NCBI GenBank assembly: GCA_013203655.1
Contig: JABMPN010000073.1
Coordinates: 1 to 35,136 of the forward strand
Length of the DNA: 35,136 bases
From: Cyanobacteria bacterium bin.51
GTDB lineage: Bacteria; Cyanobacteriota; Cyanobacteriia; PCC-6307; Cyanobiaceae
Reading direction: 5' to 3'
Below are positions 6,599 to 17,242 of this stretch, in pieces (position 1 is the stretch's first letter; every line of letters starts with the position of its first letter). Below the pieces are notes generated by a model. The model was not told the origin of the DNA and did no database searches. It saw nothing but the letters and a program-made list of their open reading frames with translations. The position numbers were made by a program, and so were the translations under genes.

Positions 6599-8203
6599 GT
6601 GTTCCGCTGGCCCCCTCCGGATGCCGCCCACCTGCTGGTGCGCTCCGAGCAGATGGCGGCCCTGGAAGCCGAACTGTTCGCCAGTGGTCTGCCGGTGGCT
6701 GCCCTGATGGAAAAGGCGGCCCTGCAGATCAGCCGGCGGCTGCTGGCCCAGCCCGAGCGGCTGGCCGCTGGCGTGCTCGTGCTGGTCGGTCCGGGCCACA
6801 ACGGCGCCGACGGGCTGGTGGTGGCGCGGGAACTGCATTTGGCGGGCGTCGCCGTGCGGATCTGGTGCCCCTTTGAGCGCCAGAAACCCCTGGCTGCAGA
6901 ACACAGGCGGCATGCCTGCTGGTTGGGGATCCCGGCCCTGACGGCAGCACCGGACCCCGGCGATTCAGCCCTCTGGATCGATGCCCTGTTTGGCATCGGC
7001 CAACACCGCGCGCCGGCTGAGGATCTCCAGACCCTCCTGGCCGAGCGGCAGGCCGCCCGAGCCGGCCAGCTGGTGGCCATCGATGTGCCCACCGGACTCT
7101 GCGCCGATGAGGGCCGGGTTCTGGGCCGGGTGGCGGCTTGCGCCAGCCAGACGTTTTGTCTGGGATTGCTCAAGCAGGGCCTGGTGCAGGACAGCGCCCT
7201 GGCCTGGGTGGGCCAGCTGGAGCGATTCGATCTGGCCCTGCCGGCAGCCCTGCTGGCGGCCTTGCCGGTCAATCAGCCGCTGGGCCTGAGCGCCGCCGAC
7301 CTCGATACGGCGCCCAGATCCGCCCCGCCGCCTGAGGCCGCAAAATATGGCCGGGGCCGGCTGCTGGTGGTGGCAGGCAGCGATCGCTACCGGGGTGCGG
7401 CCCTGCTCAGCCTGCTGGGTGCCAGCGCCAGTGGCTGCGGCAGCCTCCGGGCTGCCGTGCCGGCCGCTGTGGCGGCCGGTCTCTGGGCGGTGCAGCCCCA
7501 GGTGGTGATTGAGGCCGCCCTGGCAGAAAGACCCGCAGGTGGTCTGGCGCTGGCTCCACTGGCTGGGCCGGGAGTCCTCGACCGCCTTGATGCCGTCTTA
7601 TTGGGACCGGGCATCGGCCACGGACCGGCTTGCGTTGACGACACTGACGAACCTGCCTGGCGAGCCCTGCAGGATTTCCCGGGCTTGCTGGTGCTCGATG
7701 CCGATGGCCTTAACCGGCTCGCTGGCGGAGCGGCGGGGTCAGCGGCCACCACCTGGTTGCAACAGCGCCGGGGATCGACCTGGCTGACCCCCCATGCCGG
7801 TGAATTTTCCCGACTCTTTCCCGATCTCGCCGGCCGGCCTCCGCTCGAGGCCGCCGCCGCCGCCGCGGGTCGTTGCCAGGTTTCGGTTTTGCTCAAGGGG
7901 GCTCGCACCGTGGTGGCGGCGGCTGATGGGCGGCGCTGGCAGCTGCTGGAGGCGGCGGCCGCCGCTGCCCGCGCCGGACTGGGAGATGTGCTGGCCGGTT
8001 ATGCGGCCGGACGGGGTGCCGCTGCGGGCTGGGGCGATCTCTTCAAGCACGATCGCTCCGATGGGGGCGGGGGACTGCTGGCCGCTGTGGCCCTGGAGCA
8101 TGCCCAGGCCGGCTTGGCGAGCTGCAGGGAGCAGGGCCAGGGAGCAGCGACGCCCCAAGCGATTGCCCAGCAGTTGTCAGGACGTGCAGGCCGGGTGGCT
8201 TAG
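6599..8203 (+). CDS. nnr: Bifunctional NAD(P)HX epimerase / dehydratase
   Basis: This metabolite-repair enzyme restores NAD(P)H from its hydrated form: the N-terminal domain (YjeF/NnrE) epimerises R- and S-NAD(P)HX, and the C-terminal ribokinase-like domain (NnrD) dehydrates S-NAD(P)HX using ADP or ATP. The 534-residue fusion has GPGHNGADG at 64-72, DALFGIG and AIDVPTGL in the first half. The second half shows YGRGRLLVVAGS, LLGPGIG, DADGLN, LTPHAGEF (about 396) and AGLGDVLAG around Asp463. The last motif is usually GTGDVLAG, so Thr is replaced by Leu here. The start is a GTG at 6599 without a clear ribosome site. The gene is followed by 192 bp before the sigma factor. Confidence 0.93.
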   Translation: MFRWPPPDAAHLLVRSEQMAALEAELFASGLPVAALMEKAALQISRRLLAQPERLAAGVLVLVGPGHNGADGLVVARELHLAGVAVRIWCPFERQKPLAAEHRRHACWLGIPALTAAPDPGDSALWIDALFGIGQHRAPAEDLQTLLAERQAARAGQLVAIDVPTGLCADEGRVLGRVAACASQTFCLGLLKQGLVQDSALAWVGQLERFDLALPAALLAALPVNQPLGLSAADLDTAPRSAPPPEAAKYGRGRLLVVAGSDRYRGAALLSLLGASASGCGSLRAAVPAAVAAGLWAVQPQVVIEAALAERPAGGLALAPLAGPGVLDRLDAVLLGPGIGHGPACVDDTDEPAWRALQDFPGLLVLDADGLNRLAGGAAGSAATTWLQQRRGSTWLTPHAGEFSRLFPDLAGRPPLEAAAAAAGRCQVSVLLKGARTVVAAADGRRWQLLEAAAAAARAGLGDVLAGYAAGRGAAAGWGDLFKHDRSDGGGGLLAAVALEHAQAGLASCREQGQGAATPQAIAQQLSGRAGRVA

Positions 8204-8395
8204 CGGAGGCCAGCAACCCTGATCATCCAGATCAGTAACCCTGAAGATTACGGCAGCTACCCATAGCCGAGCCGAAGCGAGAGGCAAGTCACAGCATTGG
8301 TTGTGTCGTTTTGCACGCAGGCCCTCGAACAGTTGTTGAAATCACATCCAGGAATTGGTATTTCCAAGAGATTGGCGATCAATTTTTCAGGATTC

Positions 8396-9370
8396 ATGCC
8401 AACCGCCAGTCTTCAGATCAGGGAAAGCAGTCGTCGGCGCAGCAACGATCCCGTCAGCTGGTACCTGGCCACGATTGGGCGCGAACCACTGCTCACCCCA
8501 GCCGAGGAGATCGAACTGGGCAATCAGGTCCAGACGATGATGCGCTTGCTGGAGAACGGTGAGCCGGCCACTCCCAGCGAGCGTCAGAAGAAGGTGCTGC
8601 GCATCGGCCGGCGCTCCAAGCAGCGGATGATGAAAGCCAATCTGAGGCTGGTGGTCAGCATCGCCAAGAAATACCAGGGCAGGGGCTTGGAGCTGCTGGA
8701 CCTGGTTCAGGAGGGATCCCTCGGTCTGGAGCGGGCCGTGGAGAAATTTGATCCCACCCGCGGCTACAAATTCTCCACCTACGCCTTCTGGTGGATCCGC
8801 CAGAGCATGACCCGGGGGATCGCCTGCCATTCGCGCACGATTCGCTTGCCGGTCCACCTCGGAGAACGGCTCGGTGCCGTGCGCCGGGTGAGCCTGGAGC
8901 TGGCCCAGAAACTGGGCGCCATGCCCAGCCGCGGCGAGATTGCCGAAGCCATGGCGATCCCGATCGAGGAGCTTGATTCGCTGCTGCGTCAGTCGCTGAC
9001 CACATCCAGCCTCGATGCGCCGATCAACGGCGACGAGGGACGCAGTTCGCTTGGCGAGCTGGTGGCCAACCCGGCCAGCCAGGAGCCCCTGGAGCTGCTG
9101 GAGCGGGCCATGCACTTGGACCAGCTCGATGTCTGGCTCAGCCATCTCTCGGAGCAAGAGCGCAAGGTGCTGGAGATGCGCTACGGCGTTAACGGGACCC
9201 AGCGCAGCACTCTGGCCGAGATCGGCCGACTGATGCAGGTGTCAAGGGAGCGGGTGCGGCAGGTGGAGCTCAAGGCCCTGCGCAAGCTGCGGGCCCTCAC
9301 GGATCAGCCCCAAACAGATCAGCCGCAAACAGTGCAGCCGCTCAGTCTTCAGCCCAGATGTAGCGGGTGA
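8396..9370 (+). CDS. Group 2 (RpoD-like, non-essential type) sigma-70 factor
   Basis: This sigma factor directs RNA polymerase to promoters. Regions 2.1-2.4 lie at about residues 80-150 ([39 protein letters not shown]), followed by region 3. Region 4.2 near the end ([18 protein letters not shown]) supplies the helix-turn-helix for the -35 box. Region 1.1 is absent and the length is 324, as in cyanobacterial group 2 factors used in nutrient, light or stress responses. The tail carries a TDQPQ repeat. ATG 8396 is preceded by AGGA at a short three-base spacing; a TTG at 8297 would add 33 residues. A weak promoter (TTGAAA 8336, TATTTC 8359, 17-base spacing) may precede it. The 3' end overlaps pdhA by 29 bp. 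I cannot assign it to SigB, C, D or E. Confidence 0.93.
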
Positions 9371-10427
9371 GCTCGCTGGGGTCGGGTTCCGGAGCCGACA
9401 CAGCGAAGCTGACCGCGTCAGCGACCTCGGCGTCAATCTCGGCGTCGATCGCCTTGAGCTCCTCGGCCGTGGCCAGCTCGCCGCTGATCAGCTGGGCGGC
9501 CAGAGCCTTGATTGGATCACGCTGGGCCCAGAAGGCTTTCTCCGACTCGCTGCGCAGTTCGTCGGGATCGGCCAGCGAATGACCCCGGAACCGGTAGGTG
9601 AGGCACTCCAGCACGGTGGGGCCGTCGCCGGCTCTGGCCCGCTCGACCGCCCGCTGGGCAGCGGCTCGAACCGCCAGCACGTCCATGCCATCCACCTCTT
9701 CGCCGGCCATGCCGAAAGCGGCAGCTTTGCGCCAGATCTCCGGTTCACTGGTGGCCCGTTCGTGGGCCATGCCGATCGCCCACTTGTTGTTCTCCACCAC
9801 GAAGAGAATCGGCAGTTTCCAGAGCGCCGCCATGTTCAGGCACTCAAAGAACTGACCGTTGTTGCAGGTGCCGTCACCGAAGAAAGAGGCGGTGACGGAA
9901 TCGCTGCTGGCATCACCGAGGCCATCGCGCTTGTAGCGGCTGGTGAAGGCGGCCCCGAGGGCCACCGGAATCCCTTCGCCGATGAAGGCGTAACCACCCA
10001 GCAGATGGTGCTCGCGTGAGAAGAGGTGCATGGAGCCACCACGGCCCTTGCTGCAACCGGTGGCCTTGCCGAACAGTTCGCTCATCACCTCACGGGCCGG
10101 CACGCCGCAACTGAGGGCATGAACGTGGTCGCGGTAGGTGCTGCAGAACCAGTCGTGCTGCGGCTTCATCGCTTTGATCACCCCGGTGGCGACGGCTTCC
10201 TGGCCGTTATAAAGATGGACGAAGCCGAACATCTTGCCCCGGTAATACATCTCGGCGCACTTGTCTTCAAAGCGCCGGCCCAGGGTCATGTCGCGGTAGA
10301 GCATCAAGCCCTCAGGCCGGCTCACCATGGCCGGGGCAACAGCGGCAAAAGCGGCCAGGCGTTGGGCGTGGCTGCCGGCGCTCTCAGGCGCTTCCGGGGG
10401 GAGTGTGACAGCAAACTCCTGGATCAT
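9342..10427 (-). CDS. pdhA: Pyruvate dehydrogenase E1 component, alpha subunit
   Basis: PdhA pairs with PdhB as the thiamin-diphosphate E1 that decarboxylates pyruvate and acetylates the lipoyl E2, feeding acetyl-CoA to fatty acids and the TCA pathway. The 361-residue protein shows the ThDP motif from [15 protein letters not shown] to VVENNKW, the [10 protein letters not shown] phosphorylation-loop region, and [15 protein letters not shown]. Length is normal for the cyanobacterial/plastid type. The start at 10427 (MIQEFAVTL) is chosen because upstream sequence is not homologous and runs into the divergent ftn2. pdhB is not in the window. The gene ends inside the sigma factor's last codons (29-bp overlap), so read-through transcripts of either gene would be antisense to the other. 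Confidence 0.96.
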
Positions 10428-15728: not shown

Positions 15729-16481
15729 ATGAACAGGTTCGAATTCAGAGCCATGCCGGCCAGCAGCAATTTCCAGGAAGCGATCCGCGAGGCCCAGCAG
15801 GGAGCCCTCGTCGGCCCCAACGTGGTCAACAAGGCGCTCCCCTATGTGGGCGGCGGCATGGTGCTCACCGCCGCTGGTGTGATCGGTGGTCTGTCGTTGA
15901 TCGGCAACCCGATCTTCATGCCCCTGTTCTGGGTGGCCCTGATCGGCAACTTCATTCTCTTCTTCGTGGCCCAGAACGCGGCGATGAAGGGCAACAACGG
16001 CACGGCCCTGCCGATCCTGGCGGCCTACAGCCTGATCACCGGCTTCACGCTCAGCGGCATCGTCGCCATGGCGATCGGTACTGCCGGCATCGGCGCGATC
16101 GGAACGGCTGCTCTGGCCACAGGCATCACCTTCGTGATTGCCTCGATCGTCGGGCGCAACATGAGCGACAGCCTCGGCCAGGCCCTGAGCGGTGTGGTGG
16201 GGCTCGGCATCGTCGGGCTGCTGATCGCGATGGTGGTCCAGATCGTCGGCGGGATCTTCATTCCCGGTTTCGGCGGCAACACCTTTGAGTTGTTGATTGC
16301 CGGCTTCGGCACGGTGCTGTTCGTGGGAGCCGCATTCGTCGACTTCTACACGATGCCGCGCACCTACAACGACGACCAATATCTGGCCGGCGCGCTTGGC
16401 ATGTATCTCACCTATATCAACCTGTTCATCTTCATTCTGCGCCTGATCATCGCCCTCAACGGTGGCGGTCGCCGCAACTGA
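15729..16481 (+). CDS. Bax inhibitor-1 / YccA family membrane protein
   Basis: The 250-residue protein has about seven hydrophobic helices, small-residue rich, with the family end motif DFYTMPR...YNDDQYLAGALGMYLTYINLFIFIL. This family (BI-1, UPF0005, YccA/YbhL) includes pH-sensitive calcium-leak channels and regulators of membrane proteases; the role in cyanobacteria is unknown. The ATG at 15729 directly follows AGG with no spacing. ATG 15753 (MPASSNFQEA) is an equally plausible start that removes eight residues. A strong terminator follows, so the transcript that may start at rpsP ends here. Confidence 0.9.
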   Translation: MNRFEFRAMPASSNFQEAIREAQQGALVGPNVVNKALPYVGGGMVLTAAGVIGGLSLIGNPIFMPLFWVALIGNFILFFVAQNAAMKGNNGTALPILAAYSLITGFTLSGIVAMAIGTAGIGAIGTAALATGITFVIASIVGRNMSDSLGQALSGVVGLGIVGLLIAMVVQIVGGIFIPGFGGNTFELLIAGFGTVLFVGAAFVDFYTMPRTYNDDQYLAGALGMYLTYINLFIFILRLIIALNGGGRRN

Positions 16482-16505
16482 ATCTGCTTCCAAAGAACTA
16501 ACAAC

Positions 16506-16530
16506 GCCAGAGCTTCGGCTCTGGCTTTTT
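16506..16530 (+). terminator. Rho-independent terminator after the BI-1 gene
   Basis: GCCAGAGC and GCTCTGGC form an 8-bp perfect stem around a TTCG tetraloop, followed by five T. It lies 24 bp after the stop codon of the BI-1 family gene. Confidence 0.93.
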
Positions 16531-16625
16531 CATGGCTTGACTCCGTCCTCGGCGCCTTTCCCCTTCATTCTTTCTTCAGCCAGGCAGGCAGCGCATCAAG
16601 CGCATCATCAAAACTGCCCTGATCA

Positions 16626-16679
16626 AAGAAGACCACCCCCTTCTATCCGCGCAGCCCCTATGGGGTGGCCAAGCCCTAC
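16626..16679 (+). pseudogene. gmd: Relic of a GDP-mannose 4,6-dehydratase gene
   Basis: In one frame 16632-16679 reads TTPFYPRSPYGVAKPY, preceded by KK. This matches the active-site segment of Gmd (family consensus ETTPFYPRSPY-x-VAK-x-YAYW, including the Tyr-x3-Lys catalytic pair). The frame has a stop at 16620 just upstream, and the similarity ends after the Lys-Pro-Tyr. So only about 16 codons survive, with no start and no remaining domain. A chance match of this length is very unlikely. It sits between a terminator and the next gene, in about 165 bp that otherwise hold no intact gene. It points to a past copy of a nucleotide-sugar (surface polysaccharide) gene. Confidence 0.7.
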
Positions 16680-16699
16680 GAAAGCCGGCCTCGATGCCA

Positions 16700-17242
16700 T
16701 CAGGTGGCAACGGAATGGACGGCGGCGGCGATGGCTTGCTTCTGTTCTTCGTCGTAGCCCCATCGCTTCAGGAAGGCCACATCTTCCCCCTGGCCGCCGG
16801 TGGCTGCGAGCAACGTTTCCAGCCTCTGCTTGACAGCCCCGGGTTCCAGTCCACGCAACAGATCCCGGCAACGGCGTTGGACGCGCAGCGATTTGTCCTG
16901 TTGCTCGCTGTCGCCGCTGCGGCCGTGGTGCTGCGCCATGGCCGTGCTCATCGCCAGGTTGCGTGCCGTGAGATCCACCACCGCTTCGCCAGCCATGCGC
17001 AGCTGCAGCACCAGGGCCTCCGGTAGCCGGTCCATCAGGGCGCTGTCTCCGGCCAGCGAAACCACGAAGAAGCCGCGGGCCCCATCTCGGCTGGCCACCA
17101 ACTCGCCGACCCGATCGGCGATCACCTCATCGCTCAGTTCACCGTTCTCCCAGAGCTCAAGCCAATGGTTGGCGATCTCCATCGCTTCAGCAAAGTCAGG
17201 CACCTTGGCGGTGGAGGGACTCTCCGGCGATGACATCGACAT
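16700..17242 (-). CDS. Conserved hypothetical protein, 180 aa, function unknown
   Basis: I do not recognise a characterised family. The product is acidic and soluble, with no signal peptide or membrane segment, and appears helical (AEAMEIANHWLELWENGELS, LPEALVLQLRMAGEAVVDLT). The C-terminal half has a basic patch (RVQRRCRDLL) and ends FLKRWGYDEEQKQAIAAAV, which looks like a conserved tail. ATG 17242 gives a start only 31-61 bp from era on the opposite strand, so the two may share a divergent promoter region. Codon use is like that of the neighbours, which supports a real gene. Confidence 0.75.
   Translation of the reverse strand: MSMSSPESPSTAKVPDFAEAMEIANHWLELWENGELSDEVIADRVGELVASRDGARGFFVVSLAGDSALMDRLPEALVLQLRMAGEAVVDLTARNLAMSTAMAQHHGRSGDSEQQDKSLRVQRRCRDLLRGLEPGAVKQRLETLLAATGGQGEDVAFLKRWGYDEEQKQAIAAAVHSVAT

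Follow-up and report, generated by a model that had tools for sequence, protein, structure and literature searches.

A decayed gmd remnant between two convergent genes of a picocyanobacterium

A 135-base segment in the genome of a free-living picocyanobacterium, located between a Bax inhibitor-like gene and a conserved 180-aa gene, contains 77 bases of former gmd coding sequence. These very probably represent what is left of an ancestral intact gmd-fcl pair that occupied the same position and was removed by deletion. The two genes encode GDP-mannose 4,6-dehydratase (gmd) and GDP-L-fucose synthase (fcl), and serve GDP-fucose synthesis.

A gmd remnant downstream of the Bax inhibitor-like gene

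The stretch of DNA analysed (hereafter the window) is one entire contig (C51) of 35,136 bases, taken from a fragmented assembly of 2.08 Mb in 148 contigs that is 80.7% complete and 2.0% contaminated. The order around the segment is phoH, the Bax inhibitor-like gene, a terminator-like hairpin, the 135-base segment, the 180-aa gene and, further right, an Era-like GTPase gene; phoH and Era-like GTPase are names assigned from the look of the sequences. The Bax inhibitor-like and 180-aa genes form a convergent pair (Table 1), and the product of the latter matches nothing in NCBIfam or Pfam at E up to 1.

Table 1 Features at the junction between the Bax inhibitor-like gene and the 180-aa gene (window coordinates).
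Feature	Position	Strand	Remarks
Bax inhibitor-1-like membrane protein gene	15729..16481	+	Left flank; Pfam Bax1-I E 6e-31; 99% aa identity to SynAce01
Terminator-like hairpin	16506..16525	+	3' of the Bax inhibitor-like gene; identical sequence in SynAce01
gmd 5' leader, conserved, up to the old start codon	16526..16603	+	Alignment to SynAce01
Chance open frame (previously read as a lost C-terminus)	16565..16642	-	Antisense to gmd leader and first codons
gmd nt 1-22 (codons 1-8)	16604..16625	+	Start codon ATG to ATC; 18, 18 and 19 of 22 bases (SynAce01, G001, CS-1325)
gmd nt 436-490 (codons 146-164)	16626..16680	+	Tyr-x3-Lys inside; 48, 50 and 49 of 55 bases (SynAce01, G001, CS-1325)
Ambiguous filler with GCCGGCCTCGAT	16681..16695	.	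Exact match to SynAce01 gmd nt 628-639; fcl/180-aa spacer similar too
180-aa conserved gene	16700..17242	-	Right flank; 96% aa identity to SynAce01

The first-pass annotation of this DNA had proposed a fossil of gmd, based on positions 16632-16679 (+), which read TTPFYPRSPYGVAKPY, and on stops close upstream. Both that reading and a second one on the opposite strand were recovered, as was an in-frame TGA at 16620-16622, and the gmd assignment holds at the level of DNA, of shuffled controls and of protein families. Local scores of each piece against the gmd genes of three sister genomes were compared with those of 2000 shuffles per piece. None of the shuffles of positions 16624-16683 reached the observed scores of 41, 45 and 43, the top shuffle scoring 17, while the same piece scored 9-10 against the gmd reverse strand. 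The match to codons 1-8 is short; for the piece 16597-16626 that covers it, 0, 3 and 0 of 2000 shuffles scored as well for SynAce01, G001 and CS-1325, respectively. A 21-aa peptide, obtained by reading through one stop, matches TIGR01472 (gmd; E 2.8e-4, 20.2 bits) and PF16363 (E 4.8e-4), with both scores under the curated cut-offs since the piece is only 21 residues long. The plus-strand gmd match is far beyond chance.

The two pieces are collinear with gmd and with both flanks, and the codon 146-164 piece is out of frame with the codon 1-8 piece. The Tyr-x3-Lys segment, which has a catalytic role in GDP-mannose 4,6-dehydratase, is present as SPYGVAK at 16653-16673. The N-terminal nucleotide-binding motif GxxGxxG is missing, as codons 9-145, which contain it in SynAce01, are absent from the remnant. 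The junction contains no full-length open frame scoring above 415 bits, the TIGR01472 cut-off: the start is lost, a TGA lies inside and the frame is shifted. A previous statement that the segment lacks flanking homology does not stand, given the presence of codons 1-8 and of a conserved gmd 5' flank at 16470-16596, which aligns with 924-1050 of the SynAce01 locus (L051) over 106 of 127 bases, right up to the gmd start. Homology to SynAce01 restarts at 16696, with 16696-16760 corresponding to L051 3227-3291 (60 of 65 bases) at the end of the 180-aa gene. Homology, order, joins and the broken frame are direct observations.

Two short elements accompany the remnant. An exact 9-bp tandem duplication of AGCGCATCA, with copies at 16590-16598 and 16599-16607, overlaps the old start codon; it is specific to the window and absent from SynAce01, and could either have arisen by slippage or have been left behind by an insertion sequence on excision. 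The GCCGGCCTCGAT stretch was considered as a third gmd piece and is not claimed as such, as 12, 50 and 50 of 2000 shuffles were equally good against the three sisters, and the reverse strand scored above the forward strand in two of the three (12 vs 11).

On the minus strand, 16642-16565 reads KGVVFFDQGSFDDALDALPAWLKKE, i.e. 25 codons followed by a stop. This frame lies antisense to the leader of gmd, to the duplication, to the gene's first codons and to the beginning of the second piece; in SynAce01 the corresponding stretch holds the leader of gmd and the start of that gene. A search with the 25-aa peptide gave nothing in NCBIfam, and in Pfam only a sub-threshold match to TPR_1 (E 0.052). 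We therefore reject it as the C-terminus of a second lost gene. Of the interpretation originally offered, the part that survives is a gmd fossil formed by deletion where relatives carry sugar-nucleotide genes; the lost gene on the minus strand does not.

Intact gmd-fcl pairs occupy the junction in three other genomes of the genus

The genus sample contains four genomes, i.e. that of the window and those of Synechococcus sp. SynAce01 (G002), G001 and CS-1325 (G003). The core of the segment was found in all three relatives, in every case sharing a contig with the Bax inhibitor-like gene and lying a few hundred bases beyond its 3' end, and in each of them intact gmd then fcl directly follow that gene. 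SynAce01 (NZ_CP018091.1), the nearest row to the window in both the PhoH and Bax inhibitor trees, has the order Bax inhibitor, gmd (371 aa), fcl (334 aa) and 180-aa gene, all within 2.8 kb. Its gmd matches TIGR01472 with 572 bits, and the best model for its fcl is GDP-L-fucose synthase NF047922, with a sub-cut-off score of 462 bits (cut-off 500). In G001 and CS-1325 the pair is followed by a third sugar gene, by eye galE, and the 180-aa gene is located on a separate contig. SynAce01 also has a second gmd copy (L137 5883-6893; ~1,421,873-1,422,895), ~71% identical, which has four stop codons in the matched stretch and adjoins an open 318-aa gmd-like frame.

Probable deletion and subsequent decay

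Measured on SynAce01, 413 bases are gone between the two pieces and ~1,690 after the second, where 15 ambiguous bases are found instead. The loss thus amounts to ~2.1 kb. The start codon has gone as well, having changed to ATC, and the remaining coding bases touch 27 of the 371 gmd codons. From this layout we infer the number and order of the deletions. An ancestor of the lineage would have carried intact gmd-fcl between the Bax inhibitor-like and 180-aa genes, and at least two deletions, ~2.1 kb in total, would have occurred in the window's lineage. One would have removed gmd nt 23-435, and the other, starting at ~gmd nt 490, would have taken the remainder of gmd together with the whole of fcl, ending a few bases short of the stop codon of the 180-aa gene. 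The coding bases left over would now be decaying between the convergent genes, with no detectable function.

Four of the 77 remnant sites differ from all three sisters: one falls in the start codon, one in codon 2, one in codon 147 (Glu to Lys) and one in codon 162 (Leu to Pro). Each of them changes either an amino acid or the start codon itself, which, although the sites are few, fits the expectation after gene loss. SynAce01 still has the gene, so the loss appears to postdate the split between the two. Between the window and SynAce01, the fourfold sites that differ are 43 of 205 in phoH, 39 of 141 in the Bax inhibitor-like gene and 15 of 96 in the 180-aa gene, numbers too small for a date.

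A second fcl-like frame in the same genome

No intact gmd was found in the genome's own assembly (80.7% complete), the best score being 82.8 bits against a cut-off of 415; a search with SynAce01 gmd matched only distant relatives and the remnant itself. Another contig of the same genome (C137, locus L136) starts within a 242-codon fcl-like frame that is cut by the contig edge. Over 212 residues this frame matches SynAce01 fcl at 73-74%, compared with 86% between the sisters. The contig also carries a gene that we take to be mutM, whose sole match in the genome is itself, and which is 92% identical to that of SynAce01 and 70% to those of the other two relatives. The single mutM and its similarity to the SynAce01 gene indicate that the contig is native. 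Other genes lie upstream of mutM in SynAce01, and no fcl or gmd match was found there. A second GDP-fucose locus is thus present in the genome, or was until recently, and with this partial fcl on a native contig the GDP-fucose function may persist.

Two further observations concern this contig. Beside mutM, at L136 1657-2091 (+), a truncated start of a glucose-1-phosphate thymidylyltransferase (rfbA-like) gene can be recognised by eye, and may be a further fossil of a sugar gene bordering a core gene. An Amidase_2-like protein (Pfam E 9.8e-5, sub-cut-off) is encoded at L136 786-1667 (-), and proteins with 68-75% identity occur near gmd or fcl pieces in L053 (7737-8597), L083 (7093-7974) and L081 (7359-7853); this protein hence occupies two different sites.

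The same junction in other lineages

A search with the Bax inhibitor protein returned 88 loci, the best 80 of which were analysed. Among these 80, a near full-length, stop-free gmd lies directly downstream of the Bax inhibitor-like gene in 16, a decayed gmd is found in two (L081 and L083), the 180-aa gene follows without a gmd trace in 60, and the remaining two (L072 and L074) stop at a contig edge. In L083 (Synechococcus sp. ATX 2A4, not titled a MAG), gmd codons ~130-203 are kept in two frames at 6817-7090; by eye, the end of this fossil resembles the gmd C-terminus. In L081 (a MAG; 6928-10379), codons 13-38 (or 7-38) lie beside codons ~162-281 in a different frame, and fcl is in three pieces and two frames with an internal stop. 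In the PhoH tree (computed without L052), L081 groups with L083 as its sister, apart from the window, which pairs with SynAce01. Decay of gmd at this junction is therefore observed in at least two lineages, and its loss recurs there.

The 60 spacers between the Bax inhibitor-like and 180-aa genes gave no gmd match by blastn, and three weak fcl matches of 21-25 bp (E 0.011-0.041). A protein-level recheck of the same spacers, in which the window, L081 and L083 were all recovered as controls, returned one gmd match with E 0.67, taken as chance. The specific join of the remnant (allowing up to three mismatches) occurs in one of 400 family genomes searched, namely the window's own, and viral contigs contained no exact match. 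The segment is thus not a non-coding element conserved in all relatives, an outcome that the first-pass annotation had put forward as contrary to its reading. The Bax inhibitor tree, unlike the PhoH tree, puts part of a second gmd clade beside the window's genus. The junction may have been exchanged by recombination; these are quick trees with modest supports at that position.

Discussion

An assembly artefact, in which the assembler skipped an intact gmd-fcl by joining short repeats, would be in keeping with the fragmentation of the assembly (148 contigs, 80.7% complete) and with the absence of the exact join from every other one of the 400 family genomes. It would, however, have to create at least two separate joins, leaving pieces of 22 and 55 bp and having, by eye, no long shared word, as well as four window-only, protein-altering changes in those pieces. 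That two further genomes, one of them not titled a MAG, carry similar fossils at this junction also speaks against it. We regard mis-assembly as very unlikely, as two joins within ~70 bases and the decay-type changes would all need to be artefacts. Still further from likely, to the point of being negligible, is a functional non-coding element (a small RNA or regulatory site) that resembles gmd by chance. Nothing in its support was found: Rfam gave no match for 16400-16800 (E up to 1), 16300-16900 contains no promoter-like site, and 60 of 60 other spacers between the same two genes lack a gmd-like trace. The collinearity of the remnant with gmd likewise argues against such an element.

Given deletion of an ancestral gmd-fcl pair, redundancy or a changed selection on surface sugars may have allowed the loss. 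The redundancy case, which concerns the cause of the deletion and is not an alternative to it, holds that a second, divergent gmd-fcl was acquired elsewhere, with GDP-fucose synthesis persisting; we consider the chances for and against it to be about even. The divergent fcl-like frame on the native contig and the different gene content upstream of mutM in SynAce01 are in its favour. Against this, no gmd is visible next to that frame, the contig ending inside fcl.

The remnant is a pseudogene remnant at a variable surface-sugar locus, of a known kind, and the outcome of ordinary gene decay. It derives from the GDP-mannose 4,6-dehydratase family (TIGR01472, PF16363) and keeps the Tyr-x3-Lys segment, and is no longer a gene. 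It is most comparable to bacterial pseudogenes and intergenic gene remnants (for example Pseudofinder, PMC9336565; Rickettsia, PMC2374718), with which it shares short collinear pieces, an intact gene at the same position in relatives, and loss of frame and start. It differs from them in coming from a free-living picocyanobacterium and in being reduced to 77 bases; remnants this short may be too small for annotation tools to pick up. The Ace Lake population 'Ca. Regnicoccus frigidus', to which SynAce01 presumably belongs, varies in cell-wall and glycosyltransferase genes (PMC9716671). Surface-sugar genes hence vary between close relatives both there and at this junction. The main text of that paper does not contain the words GDP, fucose or mannose, and does not describe the junction in those terms. 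A literature search returned nothing on this junction; novelty in print is not claimed.

A broader reading, which we offer tentatively and hold to be somewhat doubtful, is that GDP-fucose operons of picocyanobacteria repeatedly enter and leave the genome at a spot just downstream of the Bax inhibitor-like gene. The site would be cleared time and again by stepwise internal deletions that leave readable stubs, with fucose synthesis moving to another island, here beside mutM. If this were true, the surface sugar would persist though the locus turns over. The remnant itself provides a polarised example of the erasure of a sugar-nucleotide operon from a free-living picocyanobacterium. Short stubs of gmd are signs of a core-gene junction at which such operons are gained and lost, and can be of use in reconstructing the turnover of the cell surface and, by extension, perhaps that of phage receptors.
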